A stretch of DNA of 33,020 bases from Gemmatimonadota bacterium. Its GTDB lineage: Bacteria > Gemmatimonadota > Gemmatimonadetes > Longimicrobiales > Gaopeijiaceae. Location: assembly GCA_022826005.1 (NCBI GenBank), contig JAJDVT010000017.1, forward strand, positions 1-33,020, in the 5' to 3' direction. Shown here piece by piece: positions 2,768 through 9,996 of the stretch (the first letter of the stretch is position 1; each line of letters opens with the position of its first letter). The translations under genes and the position numbers were made by a program. The notes under the pieces are model-generated. The model made no database searches, was not told where the DNA came from, and worked only from the letters and a program-made list of their open reading frames with translations.

Positions 2768-4549
2768 TCACGCGGGTCCTGCCGCGGACGGTTCGCCGGA
2801 GGGACGGATGTCCCGGACCCTGCCCTCGATGGTGGTGTGGCCCCGAAAGTTGTTCTCGACGAGGCTGAAGGCCACGTCCACCGGTCCCGCGGCGAGGGTC
2901 TCCGCCGGCGGCACGCGGCCGGCAAGACGAAAGCCGATGAATCCGAGGCTCGCACCGTCACGGACCGCGCGGAACTTGAGATGCTCTCCCTTGAGCACCT
3001 TGGGCGGACCGGCGAGCAGGACCCGCCGGGCAACGAAGACCGGCTCGGGATTCCCTCGTCCGAAGGGACCCGCATACTGCAGGTAGCGGTGAAGCTCCGG
3101 CCCGGCCTCGTTCAGTCCGAGATCGAGATCGGTGCGGAGTTCCGGCCGGGGCTCCGCACCACCCAGCCTGCGGCGGGCCAGGGAGCAGAAGGCCTCGCGA
3201 AAGGCGGGAAGACGGTCGCGGACGATGTCCAGTCCGGCGGCCTGGTGGTGGCCGCCGAAGCGCACGAGGTGCTCGGAGCAGGCGGAGATGCCCGCGTGCA
3301 GGTCGAAGGAGGGGATCGACCGTCCGCTACCGCGGCCGAGGTCGCCGTCAAAGGCAACAACCACGACGGGCCGGCAGATGCGCTCGACAAGCCTGGACGC
3401 CACGATGCCTGTCACGCCGGGATGCCAACCGTCTCCCGACACGACGACCGCGCGGTCGCGGACCGGCTCGTAGTCGCGCTGCAAGGCCTCCAGCGCCTCC
3501 GCTGTGATGTGTTCCTCGATGGCGCGGCGCTCCTGGTTGTTGGCCTCCAGCGTCTGCGCCAGGCGCCCGGCCTCGGCGTGGTCGTGGGTCAGCAGGAGCC
3601 GGAGGGCCGCCATCGAGTCCCCGACCCGCCCCGCGGCGTTGATGCGCGGACCGAGCTGGAAGGCAACCGCCGCCGAATCGATCGGGTTGCCGGGACCGGG
3701 ACTCAGGCCGGCAGACCGGATCAGCGCCCCAAGTCCGGGGCGTGTGGCGTGCGTGAGGGCGCGGAGGCCGTAGCGGGTGAGCACCCGGTTCTCCCCCGAC
3801 AGCTCCATCTGGTCCGCGATGGTCGCGAGCGCCACGAGGTCCAGATAGTGCCAGGCCTCGTCCTCCGGGCGCCCCAGCTCCGCCGCCAGCAGCTGCCCCA
3901 CCTTGAAGGCGACGCCCGCGCCGCAGAGGTACTTGTTCGGATACGCGCAGCCGGGACGGTTCGGGTTGACGACGGCGAGTGCGGCAGGCAACTCGGGGCC
4001 GGGCCGGTGATGGTCGGTGACGATTACGTCCATCCCGGCCGCGACGGCCCGCCGCACCGGATCCAGGGCCACGATTCCGCAGTCCACCGTGACCAGCACG
4101 GCGGCACCCCGGGCCGCGGCGCGGTCCACGCCGGGACGGGAGAGGTCGTAGCCGTGCCGGATGCGGTCCGGCACGATCGCGTCGGCCCTGCCGCCCAGCG
4201 CCCGGATCCACGCGGTGAGAAGCGCCGCCCCGCTGATCCCGTCCACGTCGTAGTCGCCGTGCACCACCACCAGCTCGCCCCGTGCGACCGCGCTGGCCAG
4301 CCGCCGGGCGGCGCGGTCCGCACCCGCAAGGCCGGCCGGATCGTGGAGCGACCCGAGCACCGGACGCAGGAAGGATCTGGCCTCTGCGACTGTCCGGTGC
4401 CCCCGGATCAGAAGTAGCCGGCAGAGGGCGGATGGGAGCCTCAGGCCGTTCTGCAGGGCGCGGACGGCCTCGGGTTCGGGGGGTGGCCGGGTCCTCCAGA
4501 GCGGGCGCGCCGAGAGCCGGCCGGCAGTCCCGGGGGAACCGGGCTTCAC
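2768..4549 (-). CDS. recJ: Single-stranded-DNA-specific exonuclease RecJ
   Basis: A 593-residue 5'-3' ssDNA exonuclease of the DHH/DHHA1 superfamily, acting in recombination and mismatch or base-excision repair. Phosphoesterase motifs are clear: VVVHGDYDVDG (D99, D101, D103), VTVDCGI (D156) and VIVTDHHRPG (D179-H180-H181). The DHHA1 part contains DGWHPGVTGIVASRL and GRSIPSFDLHAGISA followed by FGGHHQAAGL. A C-terminal OB-like region follows. The GTG at 4549 overlaps the stop of the zinc-ribbon gene (GTGA) and gives the expected length; the longer frame upstream is that gene's shadow. Confidence 0.95.
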   Translation of the reverse strand: MKPGSPGTAGRLSARPLWRTRPPPEPEAVRALQNGLRLPSALCRLLLIRGHRTVAEARSFLRPVLGSLHDPAGLAGADRAARRLASAVARGELVVVHGDYDVDGISGAALLTAWIRALGGRADAIVPDRIRHGYDLSRPGVDRAAARGAAVLVTVDCGIVALDPVRRAVAAGMDVIVTDHHRPGPELPAALAVVNPNRPGCAYPNKYLCGAGVAFKVGQLLAAELGRPEDEAWHYLDLVALATIADQMELSGENRVLTRYGLRALTHATRPGLGALIRSAGLSPGPGNPIDSAAVAFQLGPRINAAGRVGDSMAALRLLLTHDHAEAGRLAQTLEANNQERRAIEEHITAEALEALQRDYEPVRDRAVVVSGDGWHPGVTGIVASRLVERICRPVVVVAFDGDLGRGSGRSIPSFDLHAGISACSEHLVRFGGHHQAAGLDIVRDRLPAFREAFCSLARRRLGGAEPRPELRTDLDLGLNEAGPELHRYLQYAGPFGRGNPEPVFVARRVLLAGPPKVLKGEHLKFRAVRDGASLGFIGFRLAGRVPPAETLAAGPVDVAFSLVENNFRGHTTIEGRVRDIRPSGEPSAAGPA

Positions 4550-5307
4550 GTCTTGTTCGCCGGCTCCGGGAGTTCGTCTGGAACCACGTCGGGAGGCGCC
4601 GTGACGATGACGCCGCAGGCCTCGCAGCTGACGAGCCGTCCCGTGGAACGGATCTCGTTCTGAAGCTGCAGGGGGATGAGCGAGAAACATGCTCCGCAGG
4701 CGCCGTCATCGGTCATCGCCGCCACGGCCACCTTTCGTCCGCCCTTGGCGAGACCCTCATAGACGGCCAGGTACCTCCGGTCAATGCCCTCGGCAAAGAG
4801 TCCGCGCCGCAGCTCCAGCTCCGCCGCCTCGGTCCGGATGGCCTCCTGTTTCGCGCGTATCTCCTCCTTCTTCGGCACCACGGCGGAACGGGCCTCCTCC
4901 ATCCCGGCCCGCTGATCGTCGAGCCGTTCCTCCAGGCGGCCGATCTGGTCCAGAAGGCTGATCACCTCGTGTTCCTCCTGGTCCAGAGCGCGGCGCAGCA
5001 GCCCGAGTTCCGCCTGGACCGCGGCCTCTTCCCTGACCGTCTTCACCAGGTTGAGGCGCTCCTCCAGCCGTTGTACGCGCAACCGCTTGTCCTCCGCCGC
5101 AAGGCGCAGCCGCCGTTCTTCCAACTTGAGATCGCGAACCCTGGTCTCGGTCGCGGCAACCTCTTCCGCGAGTTGCATGGCCGGTTCCTCGACGGCCTCC
5201 AATTGTCCCTGAAAGGACTCGACTCTGTCCTGAATGGCCCGGATCTGCTGATCGATGATTTGAAGTTCCAGCAGCTGGCTGGAGACCGGGCCGGTTTCGA
5301 CCGTCAC
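4546..5307 (-). CDS. Coiled-coil protein with C-terminal C4 zinc ribbon (COG1579/CdsZ-like)
   Basis: A 253-residue protein. Residues 10-175 are a long, charged coiled coil. The C-terminus has a zinc ribbon with two CxxC pairs, C204/C207 and C228/C231. This layout matches the COG1579 family, which includes chlamydial CdsZ and Helicobacter HP0958. Characterised members act as chaperones or RNA-binding adaptors, but the role outside those systems is unclear. No secretion or flagellar genes are nearby. The GTG start overlaps the dnaG stop and the stop overlaps the recJ start, so it is translationally coupled on both sides. Confidence 0.85.
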   Translation of the reverse strand: MTVETGPVSSQLLELQIIDQQIRAIQDRVESFQGQLEAVEEPAMQLAEEVAATETRVRDLKLEERRLRLAAEDKRLRVQRLEERLNLVKTVREEAAVQAELGLLRRALDQEEHEVISLLDQIGRLEERLDDQRAGMEEARSAVVPKKEEIRAKQEAIRTEAAELELRRGLFAEGIDRRYLAVYEGLAKGGRKVAVAAMTDDGACGACFSLIPLQLQNEIRSTGRLVSCEACGVIVTAPPDVVPDELPEPANKT

Positions 5308-7118
5308 GATGCGCTTTCCCCTTTCCGTTGACTGCTCTTCGCGGCCCTGTGGGTGGACCTGCGCCAGTCCGGACCCAGGGCCCGCTTTTCCTTGTTCAGG
5401 TCTTCCTTGTCCTTGAGGAGCCTGCGCTTTTCCGCTTCTTCCGCCGCCCCGCGCATCTGGAGGTCCAGCGCCTCCAGACGGCGGTCGATCGTCCGGACAT
5501 CGATTCCCCGGGCCACATCCTCGAAGACCTCGTCCGGTGGAACCTCCCGGTTTCGGCTTAGCTCCTCGAAGCGCTGGACCGCCTCCGGCATCGCCCCTTC
5601 AGGCGGGACCGCGAGTTCCGGATTGTCGATCAGCCATTCGAAGATGGCACGGAAGGCACCATCCTCCAAGTCCGAAGGCCCCACTCGTTCCCCGGCCCGT
5701 TCGATCCAGTCCCGCCTCTTGAGAACGAAGTGAACCAGCTGCCGGTCCGAGCCGAGTCCCTGGAAGCGGGGCGAAGGCCGTACTCGCGCTCGTGGCGGAG
5801 TCGCTACCCTGGCCGGGCGCGGCCCTGTCGCGGCCCGCCCCAGCTCGGCCTCCAGGGTCTCGGCGCGGACCCCCGTGCGCTCGGCGATCCGCGAGAGGTA
5901 GATGTCCCGCAACCGCGGATCCCTGACCGCCCTCAGCGTGGGGAGAAGCCGGTCCAGCGCCGAACGCGTCTTCTCGATCGAGGCGAAGTAGTCGTGCTCC
6001 TCCAGAATCGCGATCTTGCGGTCGAGCACGTCGACGGCCTGGCGTACGAACCCCAGGACCGCCTCCGCACCCCCGTCGCGCGCGACCGAGTCCGGGTCCT
6101 CGCCTTCCGGAAGAGTGACCACCGACGCGTGGAGCCCCTGGGCGAGGAGCGTGTCCGCGGCTCTGAAGGTGGCCCGCAACCCCGCCGGGTCGCTGTCGAA
6201 GAGGATGCGGACCTGCCGGGTGTAGCGGGCAAGCAGCCGGGCGTGCGCCTCCGTGAGCGCGGTGCCTAGCGGCGCCACCGCGTTCGCGACGCCCACGGCG
6301 GCGAGCGAGAGCGCGTCCATGAAGCCCTCGACAAGGAGCGCGGCCCCCTGCCGGCGAATGGGATTCCCGGCCCAGCTGAGGCCGTAGAGTACCTCGCCCT
6401 TGTGGAAGATCGGGCTCTCGGGCGAATTGAGGTACTTCGGCGCACCCTTCCCTTCCGGGCCGAGCAGCCGTCCGCCGAAGGCCAGCACGCGTCCCGAGAC
6501 GGACTCGATGGGGAAGATCACGCGGCTGCGGAAGGCGTCGTAGGGCTGGTCCCCCTTCTCGCTCTTCTTGAGCAGCCCGAGCTCAAGCAGGATGCCCTCG
6601 CCGATGCCCCGGGCGGATGCGGCGTCGCGCAGCGCTCCCCACTCGTCGGGTGCGTAGCCCAGGCCGAAACGTTCACCGGTCTCGCGCGAGATCCCCCTCC
6701 GCTCGAGGTACTCGCGGGCGCCCTTGCCCCCCTCCCACTCCCAGAGGCGCTCCTGGAAGAACGAGCTGGCGTGCGCGGAGGCCTCGTAGTAGGGCCGCCG
6801 GGGGTCGTCCCCCCTTCTGCCGCGCCTGACCTCCCTCACCTCGACTCCGCTGCGCGCCCCGACGAACTTGACGGCGTCGGTGAAGCTCATCCCCTGGTGC
6901 TTCATAAGGAACGAGAACACGTCTCCGGATTCGCCGGACGAGAAATCGTGGAAGAACGCCTTGGAAGGGATCACGAAGAAGGAAGGCGTCTTTTCCTTCT
7001 TGAAGGGACTGAGTCCGCTGAAATCCTTGCCCGCCTTCTTCAGCTGCACGAACTGGCCGATGATCCCGACGATGTCGGCTCGTGCGCGAACCTCCTCCAC
7101 CACGTGATCCGGGATCAT
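5304..7118 (-). CDS. dnaG: DNA primase with degenerate zinc-binding domain
   Basis: A 604-residue primase that makes RNA primers for replication. The order is N-terminal CHC2-type domain (about 1-95), RNA polymerase core with TOPRIM (about 120-430; VEGFMDA with E264, FDSDPAG with D308 and D310), and a C-terminal helicase-binding-like region. The unusual point is the N-terminus: where C-P-F-H and C-F-G-C normally bind zinc, this protein has S37, K40, D58 and S61, while the surrounding fold residues (EKTPSFFV, SGDVFSFLM) are kept. The ATG directly abuts the mutS2 stop (TAGATG). No rpoD follows it, unlike in many bacteria. Confidence 0.96.
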   Translation of the reverse strand: MIPDHVVEEVRARADIVGIIGQFVQLKKAGKDFSGLSPFKKEKTPSFFVIPSKAFFHDFSSGESGDVFSFLMKHQGMSFTDAVKFVGARSGVEVREVRRGRRGDDPRRPYYEASAHASSFFQERLWEWEGGKGAREYLERRGISRETGERFGLGYAPDEWGALRDAASARGIGEGILLELGLLKKSEKGDQPYDAFRSRVIFPIESVSGRVLAFGGRLLGPEGKGAPKYLNSPESPIFHKGEVLYGLSWAGNPIRRQGAALLVEGFMDALSLAAVGVANAVAPLGTALTEAHARLLARYTRQVRILFDSDPAGLRATFRAADTLLAQGLHASVVTLPEGEDPDSVARDGGAEAVLGFVRQAVDVLDRKIAILEEHDYFASIEKTRSALDRLLPTLRAVRDPRLRDIYLSRIAERTGVRAETLEAELGRAATGPRPARVATPPRARVRPSPRFQGLGSDRQLVHFVLKRRDWIERAGERVGPSDLEDGAFRAIFEWLIDNPELAVPPEGAMPEAVQRFEELSRNREVPPDEVFEDVARGIDVRTIDRRLEALDLQMRGAAEEAEKRRLLKDKEDLNKEKRALGPDWRRSTHRAAKSSQRKGESAS

Positions 7119-9557
7119 CTACCGGATCCTCACCATCGTGACGCCGTAGCCGCCTTCCCCCGGCTGGCCCGCGCGAAAGTGCTGCACCCGCGCGTCGCGG
7201 CCCAGTACTTCGGACACCCTCTTGCGGAGCGCCCCGGTGCCCAGGCCGTGGATCACGCGCAGCTCGCGCAGGTCGGCCACCGCGGCCTCGTCGAGCGCCC
7301 GGCACAGAGACATCTCGGCCTCGTCGGCGCGCTGCCCGCGCAGATCCACCTCGGTGGCCGGATCCGCGATGTCGCCGCCCCATCGGGACGGCTTCGGCAC
7401 GACTCCCACCCCGCCCCCATCCCCGCCCCCACCCCCCACGCGGCCCAGGCGGCCACGCCCAACCCGCATCCTCACGCCGCCCACCAGGACCACCACCCGG
7501 TCCCCCTCGACCTCCATTACCGTGCCCTCCGCGCCGGTGTCGCTCATCCGGACCGCCGCCCCGGCCTCCAGCTCCAGCGCGTCCGGTGCGGTCCCCTCCC
7601 GCGGCGGTCCTCCCTCCCCTCCTCCCTCCCCGGCCACTGGCTCCTGAAGCGCCCGCGCGGCCTCCTCCACCGTCCTGCGGGCCCTCCGCGCGGCCTCCCG
7701 GGCCGAAACCCCGTCCCGCTCCCGGTCCTGCAGGCGCTCGATCGCCGCCTCCACTTCGCGGCGCGCCTCCAGGAGCATCCTGCGCGCCTCCCTGCGGGCC
7801 CGGGCGGCGGCTTCCCGCTCGGAGCGCCGCAGCGCCGCCTCGCGCGTCATCAGCTCGGCCTCGAGCTCCCGGGCGCGCCGCCGCTCGGTCTCCAGGGCCG
7901 CGAGGAGGCGCGAGACGCCGCGCTCCTTCCGCTCCAGCGTCTCAAGCAGGTCGTCGAGGCGCGCTTCCGCGCGGTCGCGGTAGCCGTCGGCGAGGTCCAG
8001 GACCTCTTCCGGGAAGCCCAGACCGCGGGCGATCGCCAGTCCGTAGCTGCGGCCCGGGAGCCCCTTCGCAAAGTGGTAGGTGGGCGCGAGGCGCTCGCCG
8101 TCGAAGTCGAGCGAGGCGTTGACGATGCCGTTTCCCGGCGCGGCCAGCCGCTTCAACCCGCCCATGTGCGAGGTCACCACGGCAAGGCAGCCCCGCCCTG
8201 CGAGCGTCTCGATCAGAGCGCGCGCCAGCGCCTCGCCCTCCTTGGGGTCCGTACCGGCGCCGGGCTCGTCGATGAGCACCAGCGAACGCGGTCCGGCGTT
8301 GAGCAGGACCTCCTGGAGGTTGCGGAGGTGTGCCGAGAAGGTGGACAGCGAATCGGCGATGGACTGTTCGTCGCCGACATCGGCGTATACGGAGTCGAAG
8401 GCCGGAATGCGGGTGCCGGGCCCCACCGGCGGGATCACGCCCGACTGGGCCAGGGACGCGATGAGCCCTACCGACTTGAGGAAGACCGTCTTGCCGCCGG
8501 TGTTGGGACCCGTCACGACGACCACCCGCTCCCCGGGGTCCAGGTCGATGTCGAAGGGAACCGCGTCGCCCCCTCCGGCCAGCAGCAGCGGATGACGTCC
8601 CTGCCGGATGCACAGCCCTCCACCGGCGCGACTCCCCGGGGCACCGGCCGCGGCACCGTCCGCGGCCATGTCCGCAATCTCCGGCACCGTCCCCTCCCAC
8701 CGCACCGCCACCCGGGCCAGGGCAACCCGTGCGTCCATCAGGGTGAGCGCGGCGAACGAGTCGGCGAACGCCCCGGCCAGCGGGCGGCACCGGCCGGCCA
8801 GCTCCCGCAGCACGCGCTGCACTTCGCGCACCTCGGCCCGCTCCAGCTCCCGTACCCGGTTCATCTCCACGATTGCCGACGGAGGTTCGACGAAGACCGT
8901 GGCGCCGGAGGAAGACTCGTCGTGGACGTAGCCGCCGACGGCCCTCTTACCCTCCCGCCTGACCGGGATCACGTACCTCCCCTCGCGAATCGACACCGAC
9001 GCCTCCGGAACCCGGTAGCGCTCGTCGATCCCCGCCAGCAGGCGTTCCAGGTGCCCGACGACGCGGTTGTGGGCACCGCGGAGACGGGCGCGGATCCGTC
9101 CGAGTTCCCGGCTCGCGCCATCCAGGACCGTCCCGTCCGGATCCACGGAGCGCTCGATCGCGGCCTGCAGCCGGGGGTGGGACAGGAGACGGCCCCGCAA
9201 CTCCTGCAGCGCCGGCAGCCCACCCGCCCCCTCCGCCAGGACGCGGTCCACGGCGCGCCCCGCCGCGAGCAGCCCGCCGAGTTGCGCCAGCCCGGCCGCC
9301 GGAACGACCGAGCCCTCCACCTCCAGGCGCGCCACGGTGTTCGCCGCGTCCGGGACGGCAGGCAGCCCCCAATCGGCGCGCGGCTCCAGGAAGCGGACCG
9401 TCTCCGCCACCGCGTCCAGCCGTGCCCTGGCCGCATCCGCGTCGTCCACGGGCCGAAGCCCACGGATCATCTCCCGCCCCGCAGCCGTCGACGCGAACCC
9501 CGCAACGTGCTCCAGGACCCGGTTGAATTCGAGCACCTGAAGGGCGCGGCCCGGCAT
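7119..9557 (-). CDS. mutS2: MutS2-type endonuclease/ATPase with Smr domain
   Basis: An 812-residue MutS2. The family acts on branched DNA or collided ribosomes rather than in classical mismatch repair. The MutS core and clamp lie in residues 1-310. The ATPase has Walker A GPNTGGKT (350-357) and Walker B SLVLIDEPGAGTDP (about 425-438), with the STFSAHLRN block between. A long Arg/Glu-rich coiled coil (about 520-640) follows, then a glycine-rich linker, and finally the Smr nuclease domain with VDLRGQRADEAE and HGLGTGALR. The mismatch-recognition domain of MutS is absent, as expected. It follows yqeY by one base and abuts dnaG. Confidence 0.96.
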   Translation of the reverse strand: MPGRALQVLEFNRVLEHVAGFASTAAGREMIRGLRPVDDADAARARLDAVAETVRFLEPRADWGLPAVPDAANTVARLEVEGSVVPAAGLAQLGGLLAAGRAVDRVLAEGAGGLPALQELRGRLLSHPRLQAAIERSVDPDGTVLDGASRELGRIRARLRGAHNRVVGHLERLLAGIDERYRVPEASVSIREGRYVIPVRREGKRAVGGYVHDESSSGATVFVEPPSAIVEMNRVRELERAEVREVQRVLRELAGRCRPLAGAFADSFAALTLMDARVALARVAVRWEGTVPEIADMAADGAAAGAPGSRAGGGLCIRQGRHPLLLAGGGDAVPFDIDLDPGERVVVVTGPNTGGKTVFLKSVGLIASLAQSGVIPPVGPGTRIPAFDSVYADVGDEQSIADSLSTFSAHLRNLQEVLLNAGPRSLVLIDEPGAGTDPKEGEALARALIETLAGRGCLAVVTSHMGGLKRLAAPGNGIVNASLDFDGERLAPTYHFAKGLPGRSYGLAIARGLGFPEEVLDLADGYRDRAEARLDDLLETLERKERGVSRLLAALETERRRARELEAELMTREAALRRSEREAAARARREARRMLLEARREVEAAIERLQDRERDGVSAREAARRARRTVEEAARALQEPVAGEGGGEGGPPREGTAPDALELEAGAAVRMSDTGAEGTVMEVEGDRVVVLVGGVRMRVGRGRLGRVGGGGGDGGGVGVVPKPSRWGGDIADPATEVDLRGQRADEAEMSLCRALDEAAVADLRELRVIHGLGTGALRKRVSEVLGRDARVQHFRAGQPGEGGYGVTMVRIR

Positions 9558-9558
9558 C

Positions 9559-9996
9559 CTACCCCAGCTCCTCCCGGACGATCGCCGAAGCCGCCCGGCC
9601 GTCGAATCTGCCGCGGATCCGGGGCATCAGTCCGCCCATCACGGCTCCGATGTGACCCGCGCCCGCGCCGATGAGTTCACGAACCATGTCCCGCACCTCG
9701 CCCTCCGTCAGCTCGGGCGGGAGGTAGTCCCGCAGCACCCGCTCCTGCTCCCGCTCGCGCGCCGCCAGATCCGCGCGCCCGCCCGCCTCCATCTGTGCGG
9801 CCGCGTCCTGCCGCTGCTTGATCGCCTTCGCCAGGACCGTACGGACCCCGTCGTCGTCCAATGGTCCCCCGGTCTCGATCTCCCTGTTCCTCAGTTCGGC
9901 GAGGGTCGTCGAAAGGACCAGCGTGCGAACCCGGTCCCTGGCCCGGCGTCCCTCGTTCAGGTCCGACCTCAGCCTCTCCTTGAGCGAATCCTTCAA
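9559..9996 (-). CDS. yqeY: GatB/YqeY domain protein
   Basis: About 145 residues of the YqeY family, related to the tail domain of the GatB amidotransferase subunit and thought to interact with tRNA or its charging. Family features are LKERLRSDLNEGRRARD at the start, the KAIKQRQDAA block and LPPELTEGEV with a GxVMGxLMP-like segment near the end. I chose TTG at 9996 because an AGGAGG (10005-10010) lies 8 bases upstream and because family members begin at this point. GTG codons at 10005 and 10020 are alternatives, but the Shine-Dalgarno sequence would be misplaced for both. It leads the run down to pta. Confidence 0.9.
   Translation of the reverse strand: MKDSLKERLRSDLNEGRRARDRVRTLVLSTTLAELRNREIETGGPLDDDGVRTVLAKAIKQRQDAAAQMEAGGRADLAAREREQERVLRDYLPPELTEGEVRDMVRELIGAGAGHIGAVMGGLMPRIRGRFDGRAASAIVREELG

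Follow-up and report, generated by a model that had tools for sequence, protein, structure and literature searches.

A single-copy dnaG gene at a conserved locus

We analyzed a 33,020-nucleotide stretch of Gemmatimonadota DNA (hereafter, the window) that carries a gene for the DNA primase DnaG, flanked by mutS2 and two conserved downstream genes. The features are as follows.

2768..4690, minus strand: recJ, conserved downstream neighbour of dnaG.
4546..5307, minus strand: gene for a CT398-like coiled coil plus C4 zinc ribbon that retains CxxC...CxxC; conserved downstream neighbour.
5304..7118, minus strand: dnaG, DNA primase of 604 aa, ATG start, the genome's sole dnaG (open reading frame and profile matches).
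5304..6008, minus strand: C-terminal region of DnaG, weak DnaB-binding match, fastest-evolving part of the protein (profile, divergence).
6009..6764, minus strand: RNA polymerase core (DNAG_N and Toprim), residues 119–370 (profiles, catalytic residues).
6834..7118, minus strand: N-terminal zinc-ribbon domain (CHC2, PF01807), residues 1–95, four ligands replaced (profile, alignment, model).
7119..9557, minus strand: mutS2, conserved upstream neighbour of dnaG.

The sequence-only reading had placed a DnaG primase at 5304–7118. Identity and coordinates held, and the strand is minus (7118..5304); a reading-frame check found stops on the plus strand of this interval. The protein matched the DnaG equivalog TIGR01391 over its full length, scoring 402.6 bits (curated cut-off, 283.6), and matched PF01807 (Zn_ribbon_DnaG) at 97.2 bits (gathering score, 24.9). 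PF01807, DNAG_N, Toprim, and DnaB_bind all scored over their cut-offs, the last weakly. The rest of the enzyme had been described as intact, and the Toprim acidic residues E264, D268, D308, D310, D341, and D343 (EGxxD, DxD, and DPD motifs) are indeed all present, in columns shared with no fewer than 123 of the 124 sequences aligned. The 4.85-Mb, 97%-complete genome of the window encodes one DnaB and yielded a single PF01807 match, as did each of two single-contig genus-mates (G017 and G058); the PF01807 search thus found no second canonical dnaG in any of the three. The window dnaG is a single-copy housekeeping gene at the conserved locus of its lineage. Antisense to dnaG and mutS2, an open frame of 1090 aa occupies window positions 6402–9674 on the plus strand; it probably results from high GC content and is not a gene.

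All four zinc ligands of the primase ribbon are replaced

The zinc ion of DnaG is regarded as essential for template reading and primer start. The PF01807 ligand set, C-x2-H ... C-x2-C, is absent from the window DnaG, where the corresponding positions and one neighbour read as follows.

7008..7010, minus strand: Ser37, first ligand position (Cys in canonical relatives; alignment).
6999..7001, minus strand: Lys40, second ligand position (His in canonical relatives; alignment).
6945..6947, minus strand: Asp58, third ligand position (Cys in canonical relatives; alignment).
6939..6941, minus strand: Ser60, co-replaced neighbour giving the FSSG signature (Gly in 23 of 23 canonical family members; comparison).
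6936..6938, minus strand: Ser61, fourth ligand position (Cys in canonical relatives; alignment).

We read 107 dnaG loci from sampled Gemmatimonadota genomes in addition to the window. In their alignment, the C-H-C-C (CHCC) columns fell on S37, K40, D58, and S61 (SKDS) of the window DnaG, and no gap could conceal ligands elsewhere. Moreover, the protein contains no cysteine, which excludes a shifted ligand set and also rules out misalignment hiding the real ligands. The earlier assignment of these four residues as lost zinc ligands is therefore confirmed. In domain order, predicted fold, and catalytic residues, the window DnaG resembles canonical DnaG from Bacillus stearothermophilus (1D0Q) and Aquifex aeolicus (2AU3), from which it differs in lacking any of the four zinc ligands.

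We then compared seven divergent ligand-free proteins with 23 canonical members of the same family. Near-fixed differences within the zinc domain were confined to positions 37, 40, 58, 60, 61, and 74, so that G60S and a near-fixed H74 are the two changes beyond the ligands themselves. No fixed difference between the two sets was found within residues 98–430, and a correlated change in that part of the primase was rejected.

SKDS marks one clade of Gemmatimonadota

PF01807 matched in 146 of 150 sampled Gemmatimonadota genomes. Among the 107 loci and the window, SKDS occurred only in the window's own genus (its genome and ten others) and in the sister-genus genome G070. A scan for the DFSSG signature across an order-wide set of 154 genomes recovered 23 own-genus genomes together with G070, G171, and G187 only, thereby adding genera g76 and g83 to the distribution; two further matches, in family f3, were canonical CFTCG. 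SKDS was present in all 26 aligned members of a single clade, comprising the window's genus and at least three close genera, and every other Gemmatimonadota dnaG locus read carried CHCC. A scan of public genomes returned 25 Longimicrobiales/Gemmatimonadetes MAGs, 25 of 25 with SKDS, including the single-contig chromosomes OX638356.1 and OX639991.1.

Variation of other kinds was seen outside this clade. In families f3–f7 (L060:1-7570, L056:1-10001, and others), CHCC is kept and the EKTPSF motif is replaced by forms resembling GGTHRNF or GGEGPNF, which accounts for the low Pfam scores of these families; ligand loss as the cause was ruled out. G236 (L177) and G239 (L178) of family f3 have canonical zinc domains reading CFTCG instead of CFGCG. 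G096 (L030), from the same family as the window, has three additional short PF01807 matches on contig C10 (2–3660; frames of 86–188 aa) beside a full dnaG; these are perhaps pieces of mobile-element primases.

Comparable domains in other lineages

The sequence-only reading had cautioned that similar ligand-free domains may exist elsewhere, a caution borne out by Methylobacterium, a Flavobacterium phage, and viral primases. The housekeeping-type dnaG of Methylobacterium bullatum (L137), which has a sigma-70 gene (rpoD; Sigma70 regions 1.1 and 1.2) directly downstream, reads S-N-C-S at the four positions. Like the window DnaG, it scores over the PF01807 cut-off, has serine in the first and fourth ligand positions, and carries the FSSG motif; unlike it, the M. 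bullatum protein keeps Cys at the third ligand and has a separate origin on the trees. A megaplasmid copy in M. extorquens AM1 reads S-Q-C-S, the Caulobacter phage Sansa primase S-T-C-S, and the Cellulophaga phage Ingeline_1 primase S-V-C-S. The primase of Flavobacterium phage vB_FspS_laban6-1 (L147; S-V-D-S) has lost all four ligands and contains DFSSG, as in the window, but it is a phage protein of ~930–1070 aa whose zinc domain is ~35–36% identical. Chromosomal DnaG of Flavobacteriia presumably carries KDFSSG; the sequences sampled here come from phages of that host. Bacteroidales plasmid copies keep CHCC.

We also scanned viral contigs, using bacterial and phage ligand-free sequences as seeds. 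Some 70 of 80 loci showed S-x-[C/D]-S, and 66 of 75 non-redundant viral zinc domains were ligand-free; as retrieval was biased toward FSSG, these counts show existence and not frequency. No clear Cys/Ser intermediates at ligands 1 and 4 were found among the 80 viral loci. The window DnaG fits the S-x-[C/D]-S group, with Ser at ligands 1 and 4, a non-His residue at ligand 2, D58, and SSG at 60–62. Among the sampled sequences, the catalytic-core tree required three separate ligand changes and the zinc-domain tree at least two. The S-x-[C/D]-S end state arose separately in Alphaproteobacteria and Flavobacteria phages, and these parallel cases make the window DnaG one instance of a recurrent replacement.

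Metazoan Twinkle, a T7 gp4-like relative within the Toprim primases, has likewise lost its zinc-finger cysteines, and there primase activity and other motifs are gone too (PMC3610141). The window DnaG, by comparison, keeps its catalytic core and a strongly conserved domain; because its catalytic motifs are intact, Twinkle serves as a contrast case.

Selection and predicted structure point to a probably functional, metal-free ribbon

Across the 26 ligand-free sequences, pN/pS rose from 0.14 in the zinc domain through 0.27 in the core to 0.53 in the C-terminus, and mean amino acid identity in the zinc domain (0.887) was the highest of any region of the protein. S37, K40, D58, and S61 were invariant in 26 of 26, while three of their codons showed synonymous variation (S37, AGC/AGT; D58, GAC/GAT; S61, TCC/TCG). 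Invariant residues with synonymous codon variation reflect neither sequencing error nor chance.

An AlphaFold2 model of the window DnaG, built with 22 homologues, predicted an intact primase zinc-ribbon fold for the N-terminal domain, with a pLDDT of ~90. Its match to 1D0Q (Z 15.7, rmsd 1.6 Å over 99 residues) is suggestive, as the family fold can be reproduced from homologues whether or not the metal-free domain is stable. The lowest pN/pS, the invariant replacements, and the kept fold of the model together favour the earlier proposal of a zinc-free version rather than decay. We infer that zinc has been lost and that the domain is most likely functional without metal.

In studied primases, the zinc domain recognizes the initiation trinucleotide and the motif is required for template-dependent synthesis, whereas T7 primase lacking it retains template-independent dinucleotide synthesis (PMC6163395); hence, the function of a ligand-free domain cannot be assumed. 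Strong purifying selection, the fold, and the single-copy, essential context nevertheless argue for a retained template role. We therefore favour, at a probability of roughly 80%, a housekeeping DnaG whose zinc ribbon became metal-independent in place and kept its fold and template role.

Cys-His-Cys-Cys changed to Ser-Lys-Asp-Ser in place on one ancestral branch within the otherwise canonical family, along with Gly60 to Ser, and the remainder of the domain and enzyme did not change in step with the metal site. Under the proposed mechanism, a small polar hydrogen-bond cluster of Ser37, Asp58, and Ser61, perhaps with Lys40, most likely holds the ribbon in place of zinc. The residue at position 40 varies freely across other ligand-free lineages, so a Lys40–Asp58 bridge would not be general. 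The domain, folded without metal, would most likely bind the single-stranded template and position it so that the Toprim core can start primers at the DnaB fork.

An alternative that we consider unlikely is that the domain has given up sequence-specific template recognition and persists as a structural or protein-contact module, acting for example in trans between primases or touching DnaB, with priming less sequence-specific as a result. The disappearance of every zinc ligand would fit such a role, given that T7 and related primases recognize sequence through the zinc motif (PMC6163395); however, this domain is under stronger purifying selection than the catalytic core, and the remaining domain surface is unchanged. 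Continued metal binding through other residues, such as His57, Asp58, and His74, is less probable still. Clade members carry a near-fixed His74, which is rare among canonical relatives, and 25 of 26 have His57, but one member (L128) has Lys57, there are no cysteines to hand, and the model puts His74 in the helix that follows the ribbon. In other lineages, moreover, most ligand-free domains are without these histidines.

The ligands were lost in place

In the catalytic-core tree, the ligand-free clade (SH-aLRT 100) was nested in the canonical family. A zinc-domain tree built without the ligand columns gave the same nesting, with support values of 95 (clade) and 99 (family). The order yqeY > mutS2 > dnaG > C4-zinc-ribbon protein > recJ is common to almost every locus of the phylum, whether canonical or ligand-free. 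Given both nested trees and the shared gene order, the gene was neither replaced nor swapped, and its ligands were lost in place. At the level of sequence, these comparisons show a change from CHCC to SKDS that occurred in place, is clade-wide and strongly conserved, and is confined to the metal site.

The S-x-[C/D]-S signature and FSSG motif are held in common with ligand-free Alphaproteobacteria and phages, from which the gene or its N-terminal domain might in principle have been acquired by transfer or swap. We give this hardly any credence: both trees place the protein in its own canonical family, the locus is syntenic, and the flanking zinc-domain residues resemble those of family members and not those of Alphaproteobacteria; horizontal transfer and domain swap are thus ruled out. 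Decay, a pseudogene, or an assembly artefact, which the loss of residues regarded as essential might suggest, is a negligible prospect in view of the many independent MAGs (single-contig chromosomes included), the low pN/pS with synonymous variation at three of four codons, the intact catalytic residues, and the presence of one dnaG only.

Significance

We found no published description of ligand-free DnaG zinc domains in the open-licence literature; the protein is apparently a recurrent variant of a known family that is undescribed in the open literature searched. An essential single-copy primase here manages without zinc ligands, and the replacement recurs in other lineages; the zinc atom thus seems dispensable in a textbook zinc domain. 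The odds are about even for a broader reading, in which the same small polar cluster (S-x-[C/D]-S plus FSSG) replaced the zinc site repeatedly and independently to give a metal-free, template-reading ribbon, possibly with a changed initiation sequence. Of these, the Longimicrobiales case offers the cleanest natural experiment, because the metal site alone has changed. The switch involves some five residues, the protein being otherwise unchanged, which makes a direct swap experiment feasible on whether zinc serves structure, specificity, or regulation.

General zinc economy is not supported as a blanket explanation, with ribosomal protein L36, DnaJ, and the neighbouring C4 ribbon all keeping their cysteines. 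Among the ribosomal proteins of the window's own genome, L36 (L268) retains Cys/His zinc ligands and L31 (L269, contig C45) is of the cysteine-free type.
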